Shown piece by piece: positions 56-10,908 of a stretch of DNA of 41,815 bases. The DNA comes from Cellulomonas biazotea. Its GTDB lineage: Bacteria > Actinomycetota > Actinomycetes > Actinomycetales > Cellulomonadaceae. The notes beneath the pieces were generated by a model that was given only the letters and a program-made list of their open reading frames with translations, made no database searches and was not told the DNA's origin. The stretch covers positions 1-41,815 of the forward strand of contig NZ_BIMR01000016.1 in NCBI RefSeq assembly GCF_004306155.1, read 5' to 3'. Position 1 is the stretch's first letter, and the number at the start of each line of letters is the position of its first letter. A program made the position numbers and the translations under genes.

Positions 56-1186
56 TCAGCCGACGAGCCGGTAGAACCGGAAGAAGTCGTTCTCGACGTC
101 CAGCACCTCGACGCCGGAGAAGCCCGCGTCCTGCGCGTACCCGGCGAGCACGTCGGGACGCATGACGGTGCCGGTGCCGACGCTGCCCTCCTGCGACATG
201 CCGTCGGGCAGGCAGACGCCGAGCGAGTACCCGTAGAAGAGCCGCTCGACGTGCCCGGCGGGCGCGGTGAACCGCTCCTGGGTGCGCTCGTCCATGACGA
301 GGACGAAACCGTCGTCGTGCACCATCGCGCGGGCCGCGCGCAGCACGCCGACGGGGTCGGGCATGTCGTGCACGCACTCGAAGGCGGTCACGACGTCGAA
401 CGCGCCGACGGCACCGGCGGCGTCGCCCCCGCGGAACGACACCCGGTCGGCGAGCCCGTGCGCGGCGGCGTTCCGTGTGGCCGCGGCGACGGACGGCTCG
501 TCGACGTCGAGCCCGACGACGGTCGCGCCGGGGAACGCCCGGGCGATCGCGATGCTCGACCAGCCCTCCCCGCACCCGACGTCCGCGACGCGCGCGCCGC
601 GGCTCAGGTGGGCGTGCAGCTCGGGGATCGCCGGGACGACCTCCTCGACGAACGACCCGAGGAAGAACGGCCGGTTGACCGCAGCCTGCGACTCGCGCGC
701 GTCGGCACCGAGCGCCGCCCACGGGACGCCGCCGCCGGTGCGGTAGGCGTCGAGCAGGTGGTCGACGGCGCGCAGGCTCGCGACCTGCATCCGCGCGAGG
801 GGCCCGAGGAACAGCTCGGAGTCGTGGTCGGTGAGGACCTCGGCGGCGCCGGGCGTCAGCGCGTAGCGACGCTCGTGCGCGGCGGCCCGGTCGTCGTCGA
901 CGGTGACGAAGCCCGCGACCGCCTGGTGCTCGAGCCACTCGCGGGCGTACCGCTCGTGCGTCCCGGTGGCGCGCGCGAGGTCGACGGACGTCGTCGGGCC
1001 GTCCTGCGCGAGCGTCCGGTACCAGCCGAGCCGGTCGCCGGCGTGCACGGCGAGGACCTCCTGGGCGCCGAGCAGCATCGCGACCATGCGGGTCGCGACG
1101 TCGTCGGGCGTCGGCCCGACGGGCTGGAACAGGTCGGACGACGGTGCCGCGGCGGGGGCGGTCGTGGCGTCGGCGAGATCGGGCAT
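56..1186 (-). CDS. Class I SAM-dependent methyltransferase with N-terminal winged-helix region
   Basis: 376 aa. Residues about 20-110 look like a winged-helix/dimerisation region, and a Rossmann methyltransferase domain follows, with glycine motif DVGCGEGWS near residues 202-210 and acidic loop LDVDE that would bind SAM ribose. This domain order is typical of actinobacterial methyltransferases of the Rv2258c/O-methyltransferase type; the substrate cannot be told. The ATG at 1186 was chosen because a GAGGAG Shine-Dalgarno lies just upstream, although the frame stays open to 1603. It is monocistronic, downstream of a hairpin that ends the HNH gene. Methyltransferase call strong, substrate unknown. 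Confidence 0.88.
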   Translation of the reverse strand: MPDLADATTAPAAAPSSDLFQPVGPTPDDVATRMVAMLLGAQEVLAVHAGDRLGWYRTLAQDGPTTSVDLARATGTHERYAREWLEHQAVAGFVTVDDDRAAAHERRYALTPGAAEVLTDHDSELFLGPLARMQVASLRAVDHLLDAYRTGGGVPWAALGADARESQAAVNRPFFLGSFVEEVVPAIPELHAHLSRGARVADVGCGEGWSSIAIARAFPGATVVGLDVDEPSVAAATRNAAAHGLADRVSFRGGDAAGAVGAFDVVTAFECVHDMPDPVGVLRAARAMVHDDGFVLVMDERTQERFTAPAGHVERLFYGYSLGVCLPDGMSQEGSVGTGTVMRPDVLAGYAQDAGFSGVEVLDVENDFFRFYRLVG

Positions 1187-1294
1187 GGTGCGCTCCTCGT
1201 GCTCGGCCGGTCCGGGGACGGACCGGGACGAACCCACCTGACCGCCCCATGGTCGCAGGACGTCACGCCGCCGGGAACGGCACCGGCGACGACA

Positions 1295-1328
1295 CCGGGT
1301 GGACCGCCCCGACGGACGGTCCACCCGG
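1295..1328 (-). terminator. Hairpin after HNH gene
   Basis: A 12-bp perfect inverted repeat (arms 1295-1306 and 1317-1328, 10-nt loop) begins immediately after the HNH stop codon. There is no T-tract, as is common for hairpin terminators in GC-rich actinobacteria. Confidence 0.6.
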
Positions 1329-1329
1329 T

Positions 1330-1782
1330 TCACGCGTGCAGGAGCTCGGCGAACGACGGCACGCGCGGCGCGTACCGCAGCCGCATCCCCGCCTCCTGCG
1401 GCGTGCGGTCCCGCTTGAGGTTGTTGCAGCGGCCGCACGACGCGACGGTGTTGAGCCACGTGTTCGCGTCGGCGGTCCGCGACCGCGGCAGCACGTGGTC
1501 GACGGTGCCCGCGTCGCGCGCACCGCAGTACGCGCAGACGTGCCGGTCGCGGCGCAGGACGCCGGCACGCGACCACGGCGGCGTGCCGCTGCGGTGCCGC
1601 CACCGCATCTGCACGTACCGCACGAGGCGCAGGACCGCGGGCAGCGGGTACGGCCCGTACCGCTTGCCCGCCACCGCCTCCTCGACGACCGCGACCCGGC
1701 GGTGCAGCATCTGCGCGGCGTGCTGCAGGCTGACCCGGTGCAGGGGCTCGTAGCCTGCGTTGAGGACCAGGACCCCGGACAC
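1330..1782 (-). CDS. HNH endonuclease
   Basis: 150 aa. The HNH zinc/beta-beta-alpha fold is visible as CAYC (Cys83, Cys86), the DH pair at residues 95-96, an asparagine-rich helix (ANTWLN) and CGRC (Cys116, Cys119). The N-terminus (LVLNAGYEPL) is typical of the small stand-alone HNH proteins found in most actinobacterial chromosomes; their biological role is unclear and no restriction or phage partner is present. A GTG also exists at 1791, but it directly abuts the AAGGAGG Shine-Dalgarno. The GTG at 1782 has a 7-nt spacing and is preferred. It lies 81 bp downstream of the 76-aa gene and may be cotranscribed with it. Confidence 0.9.
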   Translation of the reverse strand: MSGVLVLNAGYEPLHRVSLQHAAQMLHRRVAVVEEAVAGKRYGPYPLPAVLRLVRYVQMRWRHRSGTPPWSRAGVLRRDRHVCAYCGARDAGTVDHVLPRSRTADANTWLNTVASCGRCNNLKRDRTPQEAGMRLRYAPRVPSFAELLHA

Positions 1783-1863
1783 CGGGCTCACCTCCTTCTT
1801 CTCTCGTGTCTGCGTGCGGTCCCGTCCGGGTGCGGACGGGCTGCTCGGGCTACGCGGTGCGGG

Positions 1864-2094
1864 TTACTCGGTGACCTCGACGACGGTCGCCCAGTCGGCG
1901 TGCGCGTCGCACCAGATGCGGTCGCCGACGGTCGCGAGCGCGTCGCGGACGGCGTGCGGCTCGCACGTGATCCGGACGCGGCGCAGCGGGTTGCGGGCGG
2001 TCCGGCGGGCGATGCGCCGGCGGGCCGCCTCCGCCTCGCGGTCGGAGATCGCCGGTCGGGTGGTGACGAGGGACTGGTGGACGAGGCGGACCAT
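1864..2094 (-). CDS. Small basic protein of unknown function upstream of HNH gene
   Basis: 76 aa, ATG at 2094 preceded by AAGGAG at good spacing; ends in TAA. The middle is arginine-rich (EAEAARRRIARRTARNPLRR) and the end is acidic/aromatic (IWCDAHADWATVVEV), with two cysteines. I recognise no domain. The strong ribosome site and position just upstream of the HNH gene suggest a real gene, possibly in one transcript with the tRNA-like element at 2210-2274 in its leader. Function unknown. Confidence 0.7.
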   Translation of the reverse strand: MVRLVHQSLVTTRPAISDREAEAARRRIARRTARNPLRRVRITCEPHAVRDALATVGDRIWCDAHADWATVVEVTE

Positions 2095-2209
2095 GGCGGT
2101 CTCCTTCCTGGGTGGTGGCCGGACCGTGGGTCGGGCGGGTCTGCGTGGTCGGGGCGGCGGGACGGAGTGGTCCCGGCGGTCGGGGATGTCGTGACCGAGG
2201 TGCTCTGGG

Positions 2210-2274
2210 TCGGGGACAGAGGAGTCGAACCTCTCCGGTCGGGCCGTGCGGCCCGGCGGGCTCCTGCGCCCCCG
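2210..2274 (-). other. tRNA-like acceptor/T-arm element
   Basis: Read on the minus strand, CGGGGGC (2268-2274) pairs with GTCCCCG (2211-2217) to give a 7-bp acceptor-like stem with one G.U. It is followed by unpaired A and CCC. Inside it is a perfect 5-bp T-arm, AGAGG/CCTCT, closing a 7-nt TTCGACT loop (2218-2234). The acceptor resembles tRNA-Pro. The remaining 33 nt form a 6-bp hairpin with a 4-nt loop (about 2240-2256) and cannot make a D-arm or a 7-nt anticodon loop. It is therefore not a normal tRNA: either a tRNA-derived relic or a tRNA-mimicking RNA. It lies about 115 nt upstream of the 76-aa gene on the same strand. Confidence 0.55.
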
Positions 2275-2313
2275 TGGCGTCCGCGGCGCAACGGCTCGTG
2301 GGCAGGACGGCGA

Positions 2314-2344
2314 AGGGCCGCTCACCGGTGACGGGAGCGGCCCT
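2314..2344. terminator. Strong intergenic hairpin
   Basis: A 10-bp perfect inverted repeat (2314-2323 with 2335-2344, 11-nt loop), between the possible 48-aa ORF and the tRNA-like element. It is probably a terminator or attenuator for minus-strand transcription coming from 2514; no T-tract. Confidence 0.5.
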
Positions 2345-2367
2345 CGGGACCTGCGGCGTGCGTCAGG

Positions 2368-2514
2368 TCAGGAGGGCACGGCTTCCGTGCACCACCGGCG
2401 GCACGAGACGTCGTCGACGAGGCCGTCGACGGGGCGCTGACCGCGGAGGATCGGGGACGGGCGCACGGCGACGTGGCGGTCGCCCTGCCGGCCGTCCGGC
2501 GTGATGCTCGTCAA
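2368..2514 (-). CDS. Possible 48-aa small protein (TTG start)
   Basis: A 48-aa frame with a TTG start at 2514, a good Shine-Dalgarno (AGGAGG, 5-nt spacing) and a TGA stop 23 nt before the hairpin at 2314-2344. The product is polar and ends in SCRRWCTEAVPS with a C-x3-C pair. No family is recognised. Evidence is only the ribosome site, the frame and the placement before a hairpin; it could equally be non-coding. Confidence 0.33.
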   Translation of the reverse strand: MTSITPDGRQGDRHVAVRPSPILRGQRPVDGLVDDVSCRRWCTEAVPS

Positions 2515-2646
2515 GGTCCCCTCCTCCCGGCGCGTGCCCTCGTGGTCCCGACGACGTCGGGTGTCGCCGCTGCGGCGCCCCCGTACTGTGCCGCGGGCAC
2601 CGTCGCCCTGGCCAGCACTTTTCCGCCGCAGGACCGCCGGTGAGGC

Positions 2647-3489
2647 CTACGCGCGCGTCGCCCAGAACGCGACCGCGCCCGCGGCGGCGACGTTGAGCGA
2701 GTCCACCTCACCGGCCATGGGGATCCGCACGACGAGGTCGGACGCGGCGACGGTCGCGGGCTTGAGCCCGTGCCCTTCCGCGCCGAGGACGAGCGCGAGG
2801 CGCTCCGGCGGGTCGGCGACGAGCTCGTCGAGCGTGATCGCGTCGTCGGCGAGCGCGAGCGACGCGGTGACGAACCCGTGGTCGCGCAGTAGGTCGATGC
2901 CGTCGGGCCAGGGGTCGATGCGGGTCCACGGCACCTGGAAGACGGTGCCCATCGAGACGCGGACGGACCTCCGGTAGAGGGGGTCGGCGCAGCGCGGCGT
3001 GACGAGCACCGCGTCGACGCCCAGCGCGGCGGCGGACCGGAACGCGGCGCCGACGTTGGTGTGGTCGACGACGTCCTCGAGCACCGCGACGCGGCGCGCC
3101 CCGGCTCCCCCGCGGGCGCCCGCGAGCACGGCGGCGACCGACGGCAGCGGCGGCCGGTGCATCGCGGCGAGCGCACCCCGGTGCACGTGGAAACCCGTGA
3201 TGGCCTCCAGGACGGGCTCGTCGGCGACGAGGACGGGCACGCTCGTCCCGTCGTCGGGCTGCGCGGCCAGCATGCGCTCCAGGTCAGGCACCCAGCGGGG
3301 GGCCAGCAGGACGGACCGGGGCCGGTGCCCGGCGCGCAGGGCGCGCTCCAGCACGGTCGACGACTCCGCGATGTACAGACCCTTGGCGGGCTCGTGCCGG
3401 GAGCGCAGCGCGACGTCGGTCAGCGAGACGTAGTCGGCGAGGCGGGGGTCGGCGGGGTCGGTGACGGGCTGCAGGTCCGGGCGGGGCAC
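2647..3489 (-). CDS. TrmH/SpoU family RNA 2'-O-methyltransferase
   Basis: 280 aa. An N-terminal RNA-binding region of about 110 residues is followed by a SPOUT knot domain. The three family motifs are clear: NVGAAFRSA (motif 1, catalytic Arg), LGAEGHGL (motif 2) and IPMAGEVDSLNVAAA (motif 3). It transfers a methyl group from SAM to a ribose 2'-OH in tRNA or rRNA; the exact target cannot be assigned. The GTG at 3489 has GGGAGG upstream at 8-nt spacing. Single gene, ending in TAG. Confidence 0.92.
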   Translation of the reverse strand: MPRPDLQPVTDPADPRLADYVSLTDVALRSRHEPAKGLYIAESSTVLERALRAGHRPRSVLLAPRWVPDLERMLAAQPDDGTSVPVLVADEPVLEAITGFHVHRGALAAMHRPPLPSVAAVLAGARGGAGARRVAVLEDVVDHTNVGAAFRSAAALGVDAVLVTPRCADPLYRRSVRVSMGTVFQVPWTRIDPWPDGIDLLRDHGFVTASLALADDAITLDELVADPPERLALVLGAEGHGLKPATVAASDLVVRIPMAGEVDSLNVAAAGAVAFWATRA

Positions 3490-3534
3490 CCGCCCATCCT
3501 CCCAGCCACGAGCGTGCCGCCCGACGGACGCCGG

Positions 3535-4095
3535 TCAGAGCCGGCGGATCGGCACCCGGCCCCAGAGCGTCGTGGGACGCGGTCGCGCGGGCACCGCCCC
3601 GGCGGCGAAGGTCCGGCTCAGGACGGCCGCGAGCTGCTTCGCGGCGGCGAGCAGGTGCACGGTCGCGTCCGGCTCGTCCGACCACGACGACGGCTGGGCG
3701 AGCACCCGGGCTGCGGCGGCCGCGTCCTGCTGCAGGGCCAGGGCGTGGGACTCGGTGAGCAGCGCGGCGTGCCCGGCGTGCGACCGCAGCCCGAGCAGGT
3801 CACGGGCGGCGCGCGGCGTCGTCGGCGCGACGGGGTGCCGGTCGGCGCCCGTGAGGACGGCGGCGACGAGCCCGGCGGTCGCGTAGGTGGACTGCGGGAA
3901 CGCGTAGCAGGCGTACGGCTGGCCGTCGGCGGCGGCGCGCAGCTCGCGACGCAGGTGCGCGACCACACCGTCGACGTCGACCGACCCGGGCACGAGCGCG
4001 AGCGTCGCGTCGACGTCGGCGTGCCGCAGCGTCAGCCGCTCGAGGAAGTCGAGCGCCGGGTGGGCGTCGAACGGTCCGGGGCCCCACGCGGGCAT
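3535..4095 (-). CDS. DUF4259 domain-containing protein
   Basis: 186 aa. It begins with WGPGPFDAHPALDFLERL, the WGxGxF...D/E...F signature of DUF4259, followed by alanine-rich helices. No signal peptide or membrane segment; likely cytoplasmic. Function of the family is not established. The ATG at 4095 has GAGGAGGAGG a few bases upstream. The frame is open further upstream, but the DUF starts exactly at this ATG. It lies 45 bp upstream of the SpoU gene on the same strand and could be cotranscribed with it. Confidence 0.8.
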   Translation of the reverse strand: MPAWGPGPFDAHPALDFLERLTLRHADVDATLALVPGSVDVDGVVAHLRRELRAAADGQPYACYAFPQSTYATAGLVAAVLTGADRHPVAPTTPRAARDLLGLRSHAGHAALLTESHALALQQDAAAAARVLAQPSSWSDEPDATVHLLAAAKQLAAVLSRTFAAGAVPARPRPTTLWGRVPIRRL

Positions 4096-4311
4096 GCGCG
4101 CCTCCTCCTCGTCCTGTCGGTGTCGGGAGCCGGGTGCGGCGCGCACGGGACGGCGGCCGCAGACGGCGTCGTCCCCCTGGGCAGCGTGCCGCACCCACCC
4201 CGGCGGTGCCCAGCGCTTTGCGGCCCGGTCCCCCGCCCGGACGCCTCGGACGCCCACGCAGGCGGCCGGGCAGGCGCGAGTCTCGCGTCGAGGGCAGCGG
4301 TCCCGTCGCGG

Positions 4312-4358
4312 CGTGGTCGGCGTGTCGTCGCCTCGCGACGTGGTCGGCGTGTCGTCGC
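4312..4358. repeat. 27-bp-period tandem repeat
   Basis: The 20-bp string cgtggtcggcgtgtcgtcgc occurs at 4312-4331 and again, identically, at 4339-4358; a degenerate third start (cgtggtcagcg) is at about 4364. It sits just past the 3' end of the xylanase gene and upstream of the DUF4259 gene. The rest of the 284-bp gap shows nothing I can name. Confidence 0.75.
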
Positions 4359-4379
4359 GACGCCGTGGTCAGCGAGCCG

Positions 4380-5753
4380 TCATGACGTCGACGGCGCGTG
4401 CGCGAGCCGCACGTCGAGCACGTCGCCGGTCGCCGCGAGCGCGAATGTCGCCGACGCCCCGCCTGCGGTCACGACGTAGTCCCCGAGGAACCCGTGCACG
4501 GGCACGGCCCCGTCGTCGTCCGTGACGAGCGTCGTCGGCGCGTGCCACCACTGGTCGCGCACGAGCGACCGCAGCGCGTCGTACGCGGGCTTGGGCGTCC
4601 CGTCGACCCGCACGAGACCCGCGGGGGCGCCGAGCCACGCGCCCTCGTCCGCGATCCCCCAGTACGTGGTGGACGCGACGGCCGGGTGCGACACGAGGGT
4701 CCGGTAGTGCCGCACGAGCTCGTCGGCCTGCCGCGCCTCGCCCTCGGCCGTGGACGGCCACGAGTCGACCTGGTGGTCGTTGAGGTCCTCGATGTGCGCC
4801 GGCATGAGGTCGCCCGAGACGAGGGTCGTCTCGGTGAGGTGCAGCGGCAGGCCGAAGCGTGCGAACCGGTCGAGGATCGCCAGCGTCTTCTCCTCGCCCC
4901 AGTAGCCCTGGTGCATGTGGCTCTGCAGCCCGAGGGCGTCGACCTGGATGCCGGCCTCGAGCACGCCCTCGATCAGGCACTCGTACGCGGTGGACATGTC
5001 GAAGTCGTTGAGCAGCAGCGTCGCCCCCGGGTTCGCGGCCCGGGCGGTCTCGAAGGCGAGCCGGACGGTCGCGATCCGCCCGCGGTCCCACGCGAGGCGC
5101 GTCAGCCCGTTCGGCTCCTTGTCGAAGACCGGCATGATGACGACCTCGTTGATCGCGTCCCACGTGTCGACGACGCCCGCGAAGTCGGTGACGTCGCGCG
5201 TGACGCGGTCGCGGACGGCGGTCTCGACCTCGTCGACGGGCAGGTCGGTGAGCCAGTCCGGCGCGACCGTGTGCCAGGCGAGCGGGTGCCCCTTGACCTC
5301 GACACCCCGCTCGGCGAACCACCGCGCGGCCCGCAGCAGGCGAGCCGTGTCGGGGCGGCCACGCTCGGGCTCGAACCGCCCCCAGTAGAACGGCAGCGTG
5401 ACGGTGTTGAAGACGTCGAGCCACAGGTCGGCGAGCGCCGGGGCGGACGCGTCGCTCGCCCCGCCGAACACCGGCGGCGTGCTGTCGATCTCCCCGTTGG
5501 CGAGGCCGATGAGGTCGAAGCCGATGCAGCCGAACCGGAACGCGTGCCGCGTCTGCTCGACGACGACCTCCTGCCGGCGCAGTGGCGTGCCGTCGGCGGT
5601 GCGGACGACGAGGCGGACGTCGGCGGTGCGGTGCGCGAGCGCGGGGTCCGTCATGGGCCGCGCGGGTGTCACGGCACCGGCCGTCACGACGGTGCGGGCG
5701 GTGCTGGCCGTGCGGGCGGTGCTGGCTGTGCGGGCGTGCGGGGACAGCGGCAT
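4380..5753 (-). CDS. GH10 endo-1,4-beta-xylanase without signal peptide
   Basis: 457 aa. The GH10 barrel spans about residues 95-400: GHPLAWH at 155-161, acid/base Glu203 in DAINEV, nucleophile Glu308 in LTET. It should cleave internal beta-1,4-xylosidic bonds. An N-terminal beta-rich segment (about 43-90) precedes the barrel and a short tail follows it. There is no signal peptide: the N-terminus is Ala/Thr/Arg repeats, so the enzyme is probably cytoplasmic and acts on imported xylo-oligosaccharides. The ATG at 5753 has GAAGGA 10 nt upstream; an ATG at 5654 lacks a ribosome site. The LacI-type palindrome lies 41 bp upstream. No xylosidase or xylan-specific regulator is in view. Confidence 0.9.
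   Translation of the reverse strand: MPLSPHARTASTARTASTARTVVTAGAVTPARPMTDPALAHRTADVRLVVRTADGTPLRRQEVVVEQTRHAFRFGCIGFDLIGLANGEIDSTPPVFGGASDASAPALADLWLDVFNTVTLPFYWGRFEPERGRPDTARLLRAARWFAERGVEVKGHPLAWHTVAPDWLTDLPVDEVETAVRDRVTRDVTDFAGVVDTWDAINEVVIMPVFDKEPNGLTRLAWDRGRIATVRLAFETARAANPGATLLLNDFDMSTAYECLIEGVLEAGIQVDALGLQSHMHQGYWGEEKTLAILDRFARFGLPLHLTETTLVSGDLMPAHIEDLNDHQVDSWPSTAEGEARQADELVRHYRTLVSHPAVASTTYWGIADEGAWLGAPAGLVRVDGTPKPAYDALRSLVRDQWWHAPTTLVTDDDGAVPVHGFLGDYVVTAGGASATFALAATGDVLDVRLAHAPSTS
5692..5736 (-). repeat. 18-bp in-frame repeats in xylanase N-terminus
   Basis: Two 18-bp units (5692-5709 and 5710-5727, one mismatch) and half of a third (5728-5736) encode repeated TARTAS-like hexapeptides. 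Because the unit is a multiple of three, copy changes would keep the reading frame. Confidence 0.75.
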
Positions 5754-5794
5754 GGCGCGTGGGTCCTTCGGTCGTCGTCGACCGGGCGGCCCGC

Positions 5795-5822
5795 CCGGGT
5801 TCGATAACGTTATCGAACCCGG
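5795..5822. promoter_or_regulatory. 28-bp perfect palindrome, candidate LacI-family operator
   Basis: Fourteen-base arms meet with no spacer at the central CG; the core is TTCGATAACGTTATCGAA. A central CG in an even palindrome is typical of LacI-family operators, which often control carbohydrate genes in actinobacteria. It ends 41 bp upstream of the xylanase ATG. The TAA stop codon of the MFS gene (5810-5812) lies inside it. The regulator is not encoded in the window. Confidence 0.78.
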
Positions 5823-7072
5823 CTTCCGTCCGCGTCCACCACACTCGCGACCTGCGCCGATCGGCGCACCGCGACCCCGCCGCCCCAGGCCGCGAGCGCC
5901 CCGACCACCGCGACGACCGGCACGATGACGAACGCCGTGTGCGCCCCCACCTGGTCCGCGAGCGCCCCGAGCGCGAACGGCGCGACCCCGATGGCGATCC
6001 CGCCCGCGAGCGTCGCCCGTGCCTGCGCGGCGTCGCCCGACCCCGGTGTGGCCGCGAGCAGCAGCGACACCGACAGCGGGTACTGCGCGCCGTACCCGAA
6101 CCCGGCGACGACGAGCCCGGTGAGCGCGACCGCGGGCGTCGTGGCGGTCCACAGCACCGCCCACCCGGCGATCGCGACGAGGAACGCGCCCGTGAGCAGC
6201 AGCGCGGGCCGCACCCGCAGCGACAGGGGCGCGACGACGAAGCGGACCGCCGACATGCCCGCGACGAGCCCGGCGGTGGTCGCGGCGGCGATGCCCGCGC
6301 CCGCACCGGTCCGCTCGATGACGAGCTCGGTCGACCAGTACGTCGTCGCGTTCTCCAGCGAGATCGCGGCGACCAGGGTCGCGAGGAAGCACCACGTCGC
6401 CAGCCCGGCGCGGCGCCGCGGCTGCTCGTCGACCTCGACCTCGGCGACGTCCGGCGTGGGCGTGCCGTCCTGCGGGGCGCGACGCTCGGCGGGCGTCATC
6501 GCCCCGCCGACGGGCTGCCGGCCCAGCAGGGCCGCGGTGAGGACCGCGAGCAGCGCGGTCACGGCCACCGCAGGACGCCACCCGAAGCCCGCCGCGACGC
6601 ACGCTCCGACTGCCAGCGGCCCGAGCAGCCCGATGCTCGACCCGACCCCGTTGGCCTCCGTGACGGCGGCCGACGCCGCGGCGCCGTGGTGCTGCGCGAG
6701 ACCGGGCTGCGCGCCGCTGATCGCGAGGTTCCCCCCGATCGCGAGCACGAACATGCCGAGCAGGCTCTGCGCGAGCGTGCCGGCGGTCAGCAGCACGACG
6801 GTGCCGACGACCACGACCGCGCACGCGAGGACGAGCGTCCACCGGCGACCGCGCGCCCGCACGGCCCGCGGTGTGAGGAACGCGGTGAGGATCGCCCCCG
6901 CCGCCATCGCGGTGCCGTGCAGCCCTGCCTGCGCCCCGGAGATCCCGAGGTCGTCGGCGAGCAGCGGCACGCTCGGGTTGAACGAGTAGAGCAGCCAGCC
7001 CCACACGACGAAGCAGCCGTACAGCGTGACCGTGAAGCGGTCACGCCGTAGCCGCGGGGTGGAGGGGGCCAT
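5810..7072 (-). CDS. MFS transporter (cyanate/sugar-type, 12 TM)
   Basis: 420 aa. Two halves of six hydrophobic segments are separated by a charged loop at about 205-235. Segment 1 (VVWGWLLYSFNPSVPLLADDLG) and the following loop fit the MFS fold; the R-x-x-G-R-R motif after TM2 is present. The substrate is not determinable; closeness to the xylanase suggests a sugar or oligosaccharide but is weak evidence. The start ATG has no Shine-Dalgarno, but a TAGTGT hexamer sits 6 nt upstream, so the mRNA is probably leaderless. The last codons and stop form one arm of the operator palindrome. Confidence 0.85.
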   Translation of the reverse strand: MAPSTPRLRRDRFTVTLYGCFVVWGWLLYSFNPSVPLLADDLGISGAQAGLHGTAMAAGAILTAFLTPRAVRARGRRWTLVLACAVVVVGTVVLLTAGTLAQSLLGMFVLAIGGNLAISGAQPGLAQHHGAAASAAVTEANGVGSSIGLLGPLAVGACVAAGFGWRPAVAVTALLAVLTAALLGRQPVGGAMTPAERRAPQDGTPTPDVAEVEVDEQPRRRAGLATWCFLATLVAAISLENATTYWSTELVIERTGAGAGIAAATTAGLVAGMSAVRFVVAPLSLRVRPALLLTGAFLVAIAGWAVLWTATTPAVALTGLVVAGFGYGAQYPLSVSLLLAATPGSGDAAQARATLAGGIAIGVAPFALGALADQVGAHTAFVIVPVVAVVGALAAWGGGVAVRRSAQVASVVDADGSRVR

Positions 7073-7078
7073 GCGGGC

Positions 7079-7084
7079 ACACTA
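7079..7084 (-). promoter_or_regulatory. -10 element, leaderless start of MFS gene
   Basis: TAGTGT on the minus strand, 6 nt upstream of the ATG at 7072. The gene lacks a ribosome site. Confidence 0.5.
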
Positions 7085-7159
7085 TGCGCCGGTGCCCACG
7101 ACCCCGTCGGCCGGAGGTCCCGCGCCGCCGCCGGGCACCCGGACGGCCGAGCGCCACGC

Positions 7160-9166
7160 TCAGTCCTCGACCGTCACCGCCGCCGCGAACTGGCTCGCGT
7201 ACAGCCGGGCGTAGGCCCCGTCGGCGGCGAGCAGCTCCTCGTGCGACCCGTGCTCGACGATCGACCCGTGCTCCATCACGAGGATGGTGTCGGCGTCGCG
7301 GATGGTCGACAGGCGGTGCGCGATGACGAACGACGTCCGCCCGGCCCGCAGGGCGTTCATCGCCTGCTGGACGAGCACCTCGGTGCGGGTGTCCACGGAC
7401 GAGGTGGCCTCGTCGAGGATGAGGATCGCGGGGTCGGCGAGGAACGCGCGGGCGATGGTGAGCAGCTGCTTCTCCCCCGCCGACACGTTGCCGCCCTCGT
7501 CGTCGACGACGGTGTCGTACCCGGCGGGCAGGGTGCGCACGAACCGGTCGACGTGCGTGGCCTGCGCGGCGGCGACGATCTGCTCGTGGGTCGCGGAGTC
7601 GACGCCGTAGGCGATGTTCTCGGCGAGGGTGCCGCCGAACAGCCAGGTGTCCTGCAGGACCATGCCCATCTGGGCGCGCAGCTCGTCGCGGGTGAGGTCG
7701 CGGGTGTCGACGCCGTCGAGCGTGATGCGGCCGTCGTCGACCTCGTAGAACCGCATGAGCAGGTTGACGAGGGTGGTCTTGCCGGCACCGGTGGGTCCGA
7801 CGATCGCGATGGTGGAGCCGGGCTCGGCGACGATCGACAGGTCGTCGATGAGGGGCTTGTCGGCCTCGTACCGGAAGGCGACGTGCTCGAAGGTGACGCG
7901 TCCGCGCACAGGCCGGTCGAGGGCGGTCGGCACCTGCGGGTCGGGCGTCTGCTCGGGTGCGTCGAGCAGCTCGAAGACCCGCTCGGCGGACGCGATGCCG
8001 GACTGCAGCAGGTTGGCCATGGACGCGATCTGCGTGATGGGCTGCGTGAACTGGCGGCTGTACTGGATGAACGCCTGGACGTCGCCGAGCGACATCGCGC
8101 CGGACGCGACCCGCAGCCCGCCGACGACGGCGACGATCAGGTAGTTGAGGTTCGCGAGGAACCCGAGCGCGGGCTGGATGATCCCGGAGATGTACTGCGC
8201 CTTGAAGCTGGCCTGGTAGAGGGCCTCGTTGCGCTCCTCGAACGTCGCGGCGGCCTCGCGCTGGCGTCCGAAGACGGTGACGAGGGCGTGCCCGGTGAAC
8301 ATCTCCTCGATGTGCGCGTTGAGCTTGCCGGTCCACGCCCACTGGTCGATGAACTGGGGGCGCGACCGCTTCGCGATGGTTCCCGCGACGACCACCGACG
8401 CGGGGACGGTGACGAGCGCGACCACGGCGAGCAGCGGCGAGATCCAGAACATCATCGCGAGCACGCCGATGACGGTGAGCACCGACGTGATGAGCTGCGA
8501 CAGCGTCTGCTGGAGCGACTGCGCGACGTTGTCGATGTCGTTGGTGACGCGGCTGAGCAGCTCGCCGCGCGGCTGGGAGTCGACGTAGGACAGCGGCAGG
8601 CGCGTGAGCTTGGCCTCGACGCGCTGGCGCAGCCGGTAGACGGTCCGCTGCACGACGCCGGCGGTGATCCGCCCCTGCAGCCAGCCGAACAGGAACGACC
8701 CGACGTAGATGAGCGCGACGACCACCAGGATGTTGCGCAGCTGCGTGAAGTCGACGCCCACGCCGGGCACGGCGTCGGTGCCGGAGAGCATGTCGGCGAG
8801 CTGGTCCTGACCCTGGGCGCGCAGCCCGGCGATCGCCTGGTCGAGCGTGAGCCCCGCGGGCAGCTGCTGGCCGATGATCCCGTTGAAGATCACGTTGGTC
8901 GCGTTGCCGAGCAGCTTGGGCCCGGTGACCGCGAGGACGACCGACGCGACGCCGAGCACGATGACGGCGACGAGCGGCACGCGCTCGGGGCGCAGCTCGC
9001 GCAGGAACCGGGCGCCGGACCCGCGGAAGTCCATCGACTTCTCGCCGGGCATGCCCATGCCGCCCATGGGGCCGGGGCCGCCGCGGGGCATGCGCTGCGG
9101 GGGTGCGGGACGGGCGGTCGGGACCGCCGGGTCGGCCGTGGGTGCCGGACGCTCCTGCGCGCTCAC
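7160..9166 (-). CDS. ABC exporter half-transporter, catalytically competent subunit
   Basis: 668 aa. A long N-terminal tail rich in Pro/Gly/Met (residues 1-50) precedes six membrane helices and an ATPase domain. Walker A is GPTGAGKTT at 457-465, the signature VSAGEK, Walker B ILILD with catalytic Glu586, and H-loop His617. It is a multidrug/lipid-type exporter half. GTG at 9166 overlaps the stop of the upstream partner by four bases (GTGA) and has GGAGGAGG upstream. With 9163-10908 it should form a heterodimer in which this subunit supplies the complete catalytic residues. Substrate unknown. Confidence 0.92.
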   Translation of the reverse strand: MSAQERPAPTADPAVPTARPAPPQRMPRGGPGPMGGMGMPGEKSMDFRGSGARFLRELRPERVPLVAVIVLGVASVVLAVTGPKLLGNATNVIFNGIIGQQLPAGLTLDQAIAGLRAQGQDQLADMLSGTDAVPGVGVDFTQLRNILVVVALIYVGSFLFGWLQGRITAGVVQRTVYRLRQRVEAKLTRLPLSYVDSQPRGELLSRVTNDIDNVAQSLQQTLSQLITSVLTVIGVLAMMFWISPLLAVVALVTVPASVVVAGTIAKRSRPQFIDQWAWTGKLNAHIEEMFTGHALVTVFGRQREAAATFEERNEALYQASFKAQYISGIIQPALGFLANLNYLIVAVVGGLRVASGAMSLGDVQAFIQYSRQFTQPITQIASMANLLQSGIASAERVFELLDAPEQTPDPQVPTALDRPVRGRVTFEHVAFRYEADKPLIDDLSIVAEPGSTIAIVGPTGAGKTTLVNLLMRFYEVDDGRITLDGVDTRDLTRDELRAQMGMVLQDTWLFGGTLAENIAYGVDSATHEQIVAAAQATHVDRFVRTLPAGYDTVVDDEGGNVSAGEKQLLTIARAFLADPAILILDEATSSVDTRTEVLVQQAMNALRAGRTSFVIAHRLSTIRDADTILVMEHGSIVEHGSHEELLAADGAYARLYASQFAAAVTVED

Positions 9167-10908
9167 GCCGCCTCCTCCGCGCTGACCTGCGAGTAGACGA
9201 TCTCGCGGTAGGTCTCCGACGACTCCAGCAGCTCGGCGTGCGTGCCGACGCCGACGACGGCGCCCTCCTCGAGGACGACGATCCGGTCGGCGTGCCGGAT
9301 GGTGGCGACGCGCTGCGCGACGACGATGACGGTCGCGTCGCGCGTCTCCGGGACGAGGGCCGCGCGCAGCGCCGCGTCGGTCGCGTAGTCGAGCGCGGAG
9401 AACGAGTCGTCGAACAGGTACACGTGCGGTCGTCTGACGAGGGCGCGCGCGATGGCGAGCCGTTGCCGCTGCCCGCCGGACACGTTGGTGCCGCCCTGGG
9501 CGATGGGGGCGTCGAGGCCGCCGGTGAGCTCCTCGACGAACCCGCGCGCCTGCGCGACCTCGAGGGCGTGCCACAGCTCGTCGTCGCTCGCGCCGGGGCG
9601 CCCGAACTCGAGGTTGGTCCGCACGGTGCCGGAGAACAGGTAGGGCTTCTGCGGGACGAGGCCGATCTGGGACCACAGCACGTCGGCATCGAGCTCGCGC
9701 ACGTCGACCCCGTCGATCAGCAGCGCGCCGCCGGTGACGTCGAACAGTCGTGGCACGAGGTTGAGCAGCGTCGTCTTGCCCGAGCCGGTCGACCCGATGA
9801 TGGCCGTCGTGCGGCCCGGCTCGGCGACCAGGTCGACGCCGTGCAGCACCGCCTGCTCGGCTCCGGGGTACCGGAACTCGACGCCGCGCAGCTCGACGAG
9901 CCCGGGCCGGGACGTCGGCCCCGACGGGAGCGGTACCGGCGCGGCCGGCGGTTCGACGGTCGTGGTCGTCGTCAGCACCTCGCCGATGCGCTCCGCGGAC
10001 ACCACGGCCCGCGGGAACATGACGAACATCATCGTCGACATCATGACCGCGACCAGGATGTACGCGATGTACGACAGGTAGGCGGTGAGCGCCCCGATCT
10101 CCATCTCCCCCGCGTCGACGCGCTGCCCGCCGAACCACAGCACCGCGACGCTCGTGAGGTTGAGCACGAGCATGACGGCCGGGAACATCAGCGCCATGAG
10201 CCGCCCGACGCGCAGCGACGTGTCGAACAGGTCGGTGTTGGCGGCGGCGAAACGCTCCTGCTCGCGCTCCTCGCGGACGAACGCCCGCACGACCCGGATG
10301 CCGCTGATCTGCTCGCGCAGCACCCGGTTGATCGCGTCGATCCGCTTCTGCATGGACCGGAAGTAGGGCACCATCCGCACGACGATGAGCGCGATGACGA
10401 CCGCGAGCGCGGGCACGGCGAACAGCAGGATCGCGGAGAGCCCGACGTCTTCCAGCAGCGCCATGACGACCCCGCCGACGAGCATGATCGGCGCGACGAT
10501 CATCAGCGTGAACGTCAGCAGCACGACCATCTGCACCTGCTGCACGTCGTTCGTGGTGCGCGTGATGAGCGTCGGCGCCCCGAACGTGCCGATCTCCTGC
10601 GCGGAGAACGTCTGGACGTGACCGAACAGCCGGCCGCGCAGGTCGCGCCCGAACGCCATGGCGGCCTTCGCCCCGAAGTAGACGGCGGCGACGGCGGCGA
10701 CGACCTGGACGAGGCTGACGGCGAGCATGATGCCGCCGAGCCGCAGGATCTGGGTGGTGTCGCCGGTGGCGACGCCGTCGTCGATGATCTGCGCGTTGAG
10801 GCTGGGCAGGTAGAGCGTCGCGGCGGTCTGCAGGACCTGCAGCACGACGACCGCGACGACGGCGGAACGGTAGGGCGCCAGATGGTGGCGCAGGAGCGTG
10901 ACGAGCAC
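9163..10908 (-). CDS. ABC exporter half-transporter, degenerate-site subunit
   Basis: 581 aa. Six membrane helices (about 10-300) are followed by an ATPase domain: Walker A GSTGSGKTT at 372-380, signature VSGGQ at 476-480, Walker B VYLFD at 496-500. The catalytic glutamate position is Asp501 and the H-loop histidine is replaced by Gln532, the degenerate pattern known for heterodimeric exporters such as TM287/288 and BmrCD. GTG at 10908 was chosen for the GGGAGAG site 6 nt upstream; the open frame runs well beyond it into the stomatin gene region. Cotranscribed and coupled with 7160-9166. Confidence 0.92.
   Translation of the reverse strand: MLVTLLRHHLAPYRSAVVAVVVLQVLQTAATLYLPSLNAQIIDDGVATGDTTQILRLGGIMLAVSLVQVVAAVAAVYFGAKAAMAFGRDLRGRLFGHVQTFSAQEIGTFGAPTLITRTTNDVQQVQMVVLLTFTLMIVAPIMLVGGVVMALLEDVGLSAILLFAVPALAVVIALIVVRMVPYFRSMQKRIDAINRVLREQISGIRVVRAFVREEREQERFAAANTDLFDTSLRVGRLMALMFPAVMLVLNLTSVAVLWFGGQRVDAGEMEIGALTAYLSYIAYILVAVMMSTMMFVMFPRAVVSAERIGEVLTTTTTVEPPAAPVPLPSGPTSRPGLVELRGVEFRYPGAEQAVLHGVDLVAEPGRTTAIIGSTGSGKTTLLNLVPRLFDVTGGALLIDGVDVRELDADVLWSQIGLVPQKPYLFSGTVRTNLEFGRPGASDDELWHALEVAQARGFVEELTGGLDAPIAQGGTNVSGGQRQRLAIARALVRRPHVYLFDDSFSALDYATDAALRAALVPETRDATVIVVAQRVATIRHADRIVVLEEGAVVGVGTHAELLESSETYREIVYSQVSAEEAA

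Follow-up and report, generated by a model that had tools for sequence, protein, structure and literature searches.

A miniature tRNA-like element without an anticodon beside an HNH endonuclease gene of Cellulomonas, probably derived from a D-arm-minimised tRNA(CAU)

The window, a stretch of 41,815 nucleotides from Cellulomonas biazotea (contig NZ_BIMR01000016.1), carries a short tRNA-like element on its minus strand, followed by the small gene p76 and the endonuclease gene HNH-B (Table 1). On the HNH side, the element is the only adjacent tRNA-type feature within the window itself. The p76 gene was found in 8 of 220 genomes of the family, all of one genus and each time with an HNH gene after it; it has no match in Pfam, NCBIfam or PADLOC, none in phages and only one at E = 0.12 in PHROGs, and its structure model (mean pLDDT 54.5) is unusable. 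A G+C-rich hairpin can be recognised by eye 5' of p76-HNH in all eight such cassettes, with or without the element.

Table 1. Features of the tRNA-like locus in the window.
Feature	Coordinates	Strand	Basis and remarks
Miniature element, tRNA-like; 65 nt long with its discriminator A73 (2210)	2210..2274	-	Cloverleaf; 11 genus genomes, this one included
Acceptor stem	5' strand 2274-2268, 3' strand 2217-2211	-	7/7 pairs in the window
Vestigial D arm GC-AGGA-GC with invariant AGG (G18G19-like)	2260..2267	-	Folds and alignment
Hairpin at the anticodon-arm position, 6 bp, tetraloop GCAC, no anticodon	2240..2255	-	Predicted folds
T arm AGAGG-TTCGACT-CCTCT	2218..2234	-	5/5 pairs
CCCA after the discriminator	2206..2209	-	ACCA instead in 7 type II genomes
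G+C-rich hairpin 5' of the element, resembling a leader or terminator	2315..2343	-	By eye, 8/8 upstream regions
p76, 76-aa gene, family of unknown function	1864..2094	-	8/220 family genomes
HNH-B endonuclease gene, 153 aa	1330..1791	-	Pfam HNH 1.3e-8; PHROG 16726 over residues 6-151

A preliminary description of this DNA had reported a 7-bp acceptor-like stem and a perfect T arm with a TTCGACT loop at 2210-2274, and both are present there, on the minus strand. The acceptor pairs CGGGGGC with GTCCCCG and includes one G-U pair. Along with the T arm, whose loop fits the TTCRANN pattern, and the discriminator followed by CC(A), it represents the canonical part of the element. In place of a canonical D stem of 3-4 bp, most of the 11 elements found in the genus have a 2-bp GC/GC stem around AGGA or AGGT (G008 has none), and A15, G16 and G17 are invariant across the 11 aligned rows. 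In place of the canonical 7-nt anticodon loop with U33, the window has the tetraloop GCAC. The same description had one hairpin replacing both the D and the anticodon arm: the single hairpin stands, but at the position of the anticodon arm, and the D arm has shrunk to 2 bp instead of being replaced. As judged by eye, a usable anticodon is missing in 9 of the 11 genomes; the loop at the anticodon position reads CTCATAA only in G050 and CTCATAG in G020, and it comprises 3-5 nt in the predicted folds of G008 and of the type II elements introduced below.

When both strands of the window were scanned strictly for this anatomy, a single match emerged, compared with none in 4 Mb simulated by a first-order Markov model. 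Looser criteria, fixed after homologues had been seen, gave one match in the window and two in 20 Mb, which corresponds to 0.008 expected per window. Folding energy was rejected as evidence (z -1.7; 11 of 200 shuffles fold equally well); the minimum-energy fold of the window's element is an alternative structure 0.4 kcal/mol below the cloverleaf, and this element is not among the 8 of 11 sequences in which the optimal fold has the tRNA-like acceptor and T arm. Rfam returns nothing for the window at gathering thresholds and only tRNA-Sec (E = 8) at relaxed ones, and no RF00005 match at E <= 1 coincides with the element. ARAGORN, too, calls no tRNA anywhere in the window; among the 11 elements of the genus it calls tRNA-Met(cat) in G050, with a longer 5' end than the element as drawn, and a 98-nt tRNA-Cys in G018, G022 and G024; the remaining seven receive no call.

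Several DNA matches elsewhere in the genus sit just over the element (L004-L006, L008, L009, L022). With a covariance model it was found in at least 11 of 60 genus genomes, among them Cellulomonas humilata, C. chitinilytica and Cellulomonas sp. Leaf334, and in at least 11 of 221 family genomes, where Cellulomonas is the only one of 25 genera in which the search found it. These counts are lower bounds, because stricter Infernal filters apply in model searches over 40 genomes and the candidates scored per genome are limited (12 in the order, class and phylum searches). The order search over 396 genomes likewise returned, as a lower bound, only G000 and G393; the latter (E 0.006) was discarded as a chance match, since a TTCGA T loop is missing from the stretch and an HNH gene from its 3-kb locus.

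The elements occur in two types of locus. In type I (G000, G008, G020, G050) the element is followed by p76 and HNH, and in type II (G018, G022, G024, G054, G055), which occupies one common site, by tRNA-Arg(ACG) and HNH. Two further genomes carry the element at the type II site: in G059 the tRNA-Arg is deleted, the HNH gene is debris and the element is intact, and in G051 the element stands alone, followed by a terminator-like hairpin (by eye) and by no HNH gene. In G022 the HNH gene is frameshifted and the element kept. An HNH gene thus follows nine of the 11 elements, one of these genes being frameshifted; a tenth element has HNH debris as its neighbour, and the eleventh stands by itself. 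No DNA could be aligned beyond the cassette between G000, G008, the G020/G050 pair and the type II genomes when about 20 kb per locus (12 kb of the window) were compared. A candidate cassette-free type II site is seen in G030 (L233, ~2150-2320), where ~100-120 nt separate the TetR-like from the RDD-like gene and contain no tRNA-Arg and no HNH gene.

Covariation supports the drawn structure. In the MAFFT alignment of the 11 sequences (A4), 98.4% of cells are paired and three pairs have changed on both sides; the covariation score is reached by none of 500 shuffles, pairing falls to 47-59% when the partner is shifted by 1-3 columns, and the count of extra pair types is unexceptional (81 of 500 shuffles reach it). 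A model-fitted alignment of 13 rows, to which two distant relatives were added (A10), has 98.6% paired cells and eight pairs changed on both sides, against 0 of 500 shuffles and 45-55% pairing in the slid controls. In this alignment the acceptor has 98.9% of its cells paired, with two-sided changes in five of seven pairs, and the T arm 100%. The preliminary description had named two findings that would speak against the element, namely no compensatory changes in related genomes and no conserved placement relative to the downstream genes. With covarying stems, and with HNH company kept in several unrelated chromosomal contexts, the element has survived both, and its reading as a tRNA-like, probably tRNA-derived structure agrees with a cloverleaf whose stems covary between genomes.

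Sequence conservation is unevenly distributed along the element. Identity among the seven type II genomes amounts to 100% in the 5' core, 98.9% in the 3' core and 86% in the middle, and falls to 81% over the first 50 nt upstream and to 74% over the next 100; in five of these genomes the spacer between element and tRNA reaches 85% and the tRNA-Arg 100%. Across the four type I genomes the values are 91% for the 3' core, 81% for the 5' core and 60% for the middle, and the flanks drop to 46% over 25 nt on the upstream side and 32% over 30 nt on the downstream side. At third codon positions the type II HNH gene (4 genomes) has 84% identity and type I p76 has 73%, the latter reaching only 76% at positions 1+2; as G+C bias raises third-position identity, the contrast in constraint between element and codons is approximate. 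These comparisons show an element under selection, with its acceptor/T-arm half kept and its hairpin free in sequence yet still paired.

A tRNA pseudogene or an integration fragment is marked by structure without selective constraint, which is not the pattern found here. The missing anticodons (9 of 11 genomes, by eye), the neighbouring tRNA-Arg damaged in G005 and deleted in G059, the HNH gene frameshifted in G022 and reduced to debris in G059, and a host that already has 45 tRNA genes would all suit a dead relic, that is, a tRNA gene of a mobile array that is decaying and without function today. The compensatory changes in acceptor and T arm argue against such a relic, as does a type II core that is 98.9-100% identical next to 81% in the 50 nt upstream and that is intact even in G051 and G059, both without a working HNH gene; we regard it as unlikely. 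A tRNA fragment could also be left behind when a mobile element integrates site-specifically into a tRNA gene, an event known to be a general source of such fragments (PMC9897764). However, such remnants keep one contiguous part of a tRNA, whereas the element has both acceptor strands, a shortened D arm and a T arm, all covarying, and none of the 45 host tRNA genes closely matches it, which makes this origin extremely improbable.

The element and the HNH gene are linked but separable both ways, as each is also found without the other. A close HNH paralogue (61% identity or more) is present in 13 of the 60 genus genomes, and the element occurs in 9 of these 13 versus 2 of the 47 others; the four paralogue carriers without it are G013, G005, G040 and G057. 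The HNH gene does not need the element, since four of the eight p76-HNH cassettes (G013, G082, G086, G087) lack it, as do the tRNA-Arg-HNH pairs at the type II site of G005 and G040 and the HNH gene located elsewhere in G057. The tRNA-Arg before the intact HNH gene of G005 (L084, ~9798-9873) has a shortened anticodon loop, is of undetermined type in ARAGORN and represents a decaying tRNA.

These arrangements bear on a possible cis-acting leader, which would control p76/HNH expression through its folding, for example, or by binding a tRNA-handling enzyme. Wherever p76-HNH or tRNA-Arg-HNH is present, the element does precede it on the same strand; in the window the distance to the p76 start is ~110 nt, and in type I loci a G+C-rich hairpin lies ahead of the element. 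As an obligatory arrangement, the cis-acting role raised in the preliminary description is contradicted by the four element-free p76-HNH cassettes, by the lack of p76 in 7 of 11 carriers, and by G051, G059 and G022, which keep the element with no HNH gene, its debris or a frameshifted copy, respectively. A leader function in general is also opposed by the terminator-like hairpin (by eye) that follows the element of G051, and by the tRNA-Arg lying between element and HNH in type II, and we therefore consider it quite unlikely.

HNH-B has near-full-length relatives in phages and plasmids, many of them close to tRNA genes. We chose 15 loci from the phage and plasmid lists (10 phage, 5 plasmid). 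A same-strand tRNA ends 14-59 nt ahead of the HNH start in seven of them and at 120 nt in one more, making eight within 120 nt; three have the nearest upstream tRNA at 245-1214 nt, and four (phages GodonK and Sixama and two plasmids) have no same-strand tRNA upstream. In the Microbacterium phages Cece, A3Wally, Pumpernickel and Zooman the relative lies inside clusters of ~20 tRNAs. The tRNA-Arg of three named Cellulomonas loci ends within 20 nt of the HNH start (the alignment starts 11-12 nt away), and the arrangement of a tRNA-array HNH cassette, with the HNH gene adjoining a tRNA, is found in type II loci, G005, G040 and 8 of the 15 phage and plasmid loci. The G057 locus (L086, ~451-9115) has 19 ARAGORN tRNA calls and a tmRNA-like stretch (by eye), followed by a 63%-identical HNH gene, and this cluster is probably a mobile element.

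In groups of mycobacterial tRNA arrays, an endonuclease, often of HNH type, is given as the most widespread coding sequence (PMC5966550). HNH homing has been proposed as a possible spreader of tRNA arrays, and SegB of T4 is cited as spreading its own gene together with the surrounding tRNA genes (PMC6409571). The mycobacterial plasmid and phage arrays share with our loci an HNH gene among tRNA genes (PMC5966550, PMC6409571); unlike them, the chromosomal array of Cellulomonas consists of one degenerate tRNA-like element beside HNH, with or without tRNA-Arg.

The idea that the element stands 5' of this HNH family everywhere was rejected. In a model search of 54 of the 80 retrieved HNH loci, three from Cellulomonas (L088, L089 and L091) matched strongly; the remaining ones had E >= 0.2, including the Amycolatopsis loci L094 and L095, where the match has the right place and strand but is without the T-arm motif. 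An upstream motif scan of L087-L121 found only these three elements and ordinary tRNAs, and HNH relatives of other genera (L093-L121) have no such element upstream. A pattern search for HNH-B in IMG/VR gave 45 matches, none of them confirmed. A structure search with the HNH model found no match at E <= 0.001, with Cas9-, IscB- and McrA-type HNH domains as the best ones. IscB and Cas9 with their omega RNA resemble the present locus in having an HNH gene with a structured RNA upstream; in contrast to omega RNA, the element is tRNA-like and has no match to the omega RNA families (HEARO) of IscB/IsrB in Rfam. The sequence similarity of HNH-B to IscB/Cas9 is confined to the HNH part, which does not make it an IscB/IsrB protein, and a suspected likeness of its N-terminus to the PLMP domain of IscB/IshB found no confirmation, as there is no N-terminal sequence match.

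With respect to parentage, the acceptor end is Pro-like, as had been suggested: of 225 tRNA sequences scored, in which overlapping loci count some genes twice, nine have C1-G72 and eight of these nine are called tRNA-Pro; A73 belongs to the same Pro-like end. The best match of the core is the initiator-type tRNA-Met of the host, and the CTCATAA and CTCATAG loops of G050 and G020 point to a tRNA(CAU), not to tRNA-Pro. At E <= 0.001 the class search found at least 3 of 394 genomes, namely the window's own and the distant actinobacteria G593 and G682, which have a mini-D arm of the same kind and a CTCATAA loop. Both mini-tRNAs score 46 bits, versus at most 25 for other tRNAs of the same loci. The one of G593, which ARAGORN misses, shares its strand with 16 tRNAs that ARAGORN does call, with no Met tRNA among them; the one of G682 adjoins tRNA-Tyr and is called tRNA-Met. 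No HNH-B relative lies near either, which means that outside Cellulomonas the cassette was not seen in combination with a CAU mini-tRNA. Searches of phages and plasmids gave only short chance-level matches to the element, no phage or plasmid match to the G593 mini-tRNA and no plasmid match to that of G682. The phylum search found at least 5 of 396 genomes and added G943 (a CAU tRNA with a 3-bp D stem) as well as G983 and G994 (ordinary-looking CAU array tRNAs), which we left out of the counts. It is from the two Cellulomonas loops and the two distant genomes that we infer descent from a tRNA(CAU).

Could the element then still be a working, D-arm-reduced tRNA that decodes Met/CAU in at least some genomes? 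The canonical CTCATAA loop of G050, where ARAGORN calls tRNA-Met(cat), albeit with the longer 5' end, would agree with this, and so would the lack of Met among the 16 ARAGORN tRNAs of the G593 cluster. Decoding nevertheless seems very unlikely with a GCAC loop and no anticodon in the window, predicted loops of 3-5 nt in type II and G008, and ARAGORN calls that comprise a 98-nt tRNA-Cys in three type II genomes and nothing in seven other carriers.

A comparable form exists on viral contigs. A pattern scan found a D-armless tRNA with a CTCATAA loop and a GGCAGG/CCTGCC acceptor in 19 IMG/VR contigs (L300, L311, L360 and L384-L398, and L383, which was dropped before alignment for its different spacing). 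The 18 aligned contigs, with 11 distinct rows, have 99.0% of cells paired and six pairs changed on both sides, and the anticodon stem compensates; as part of the acceptor, the CAU loop and the T loop were prescribed by the pattern, information comes from the remaining positions alone. ARAGORN misses this tRNA in 7 of 18 contigs and gives it varying 5' ends in the others. We take the viral form as a likeness to the Cellulomonas element, short of established homology. An earlier, broader viral pattern had mostly ordinary tRNAs among the matches listed. A further viral contig (L258, 4134-4188, minus strand) bears an unclassified tRNA-like stretch with a T arm, a partial acceptor and a short middle.

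Several known RNAs invite comparison. The tRNA-like domain of tmRNA comprises an acceptor and a T arm, with a reduced D arm and no anticodon arm, and so retains the upper half of a tRNA, as does our element. Unlike tmRNA, the element has neither an mRNA-like part nor a tag, the 65 nt have no tmRNA match in Rfam or ARAGORN, and the C1-G72 of its acceptor stands against the alanine G3-U70 pair that serves as identity element in the tmRNA acceptor. The 'tRNA-Other' of the Bacillus cereus group, a non-decoding pseudo-tRNA, is likewise a tRNA-like RNA without ordinary decoding, but it has a fuller cloverleaf and belongs to a different phylum and context. Loss of the D arm is known from tRNAs of animal mitochondria (PMC7609411), which resemble the element in that the D arm is shortened or gone and the rest of the molecule is tRNA-like; unlike these, the element is bacterial, and its anticodon arm is degenerate in most Cellulomonas copies. 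No description of the element was found among the titles and abstract openings of the open-licence literature on tRNA-like features together with HNH in actinobacteria, on tRNA-like features in Cellulomonas and on D-armless tRNA in connection with phages.

In order to account for these observations together, we propose that the element is probably a derived, mostly non-decoding, D-arm-minimised tRNA(CAU) from mobile tRNA/HNH DNA, kept for its tRNA-like half. This judgement covers the identity and origin of the element; we are less confident about any specific function. A D-arm-minimised tRNA(CAU) of array type would have entered Cellulomonas chromosomes together with a putative homing-type HNH gene. 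There the anticodon arm may have been freed to drift, with the acceptor, the elbow formed by AGG and the T loop, the T arm and A73-CC held in place. Since the tRNA-like half is near-constant and the codon-reading part has decayed, the element probably serves some purpose other than decoding.

The acceptor/T-arm half of tRNAs is contacted by RNase P, by EF-Tu and by the enzymes of 3' processing and CCA addition. Selection on this half, combined with a hairpin free to vary in sequence, accords with a non-decoding RNA that continues to use the tRNA machinery. In the most likely mechanism, the element would be transcribed ahead of p76-HNH or tRNA-Arg-HNH and treated as a tRNA by processing enzymes, with RNase P cutting at C1 and 3' trimming at the CC end. 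This would release a stable RNA of ~65-68 nt, and the same cut may provide the downstream message with a processed 5' end near its ribosome-binding site, in the manner of tRNA punctuation. That the element survives without a working HNH gene in G051, G059 and G022 argues that the RNA itself matters, and yet this retention could also reflect recent loss of HNH.

Altogether, we tentatively suggest, with slightly less than even confidence, that D-arm-minimised tRNA(CAU) species on arrays and phage contigs form an unnoticed bacterial and phage class that ARAGORN often misses or mis-calls, and that the Cellulomonas branch has become a non-decoding stand-alone RNA that outlives its HNH carrier. If true, a conserved D-arm-minimised bacterial tRNA and its D-armless viral counterpart would show how small a working or processed tRNA can get. 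The Cellulomonas branch offers a natural series, which leads from an anticodon-like loop to a conserved tRNA-like RNA without one beside a putative selfish nuclease, and in which selection on the acceptor/T-arm half can be tested directly.
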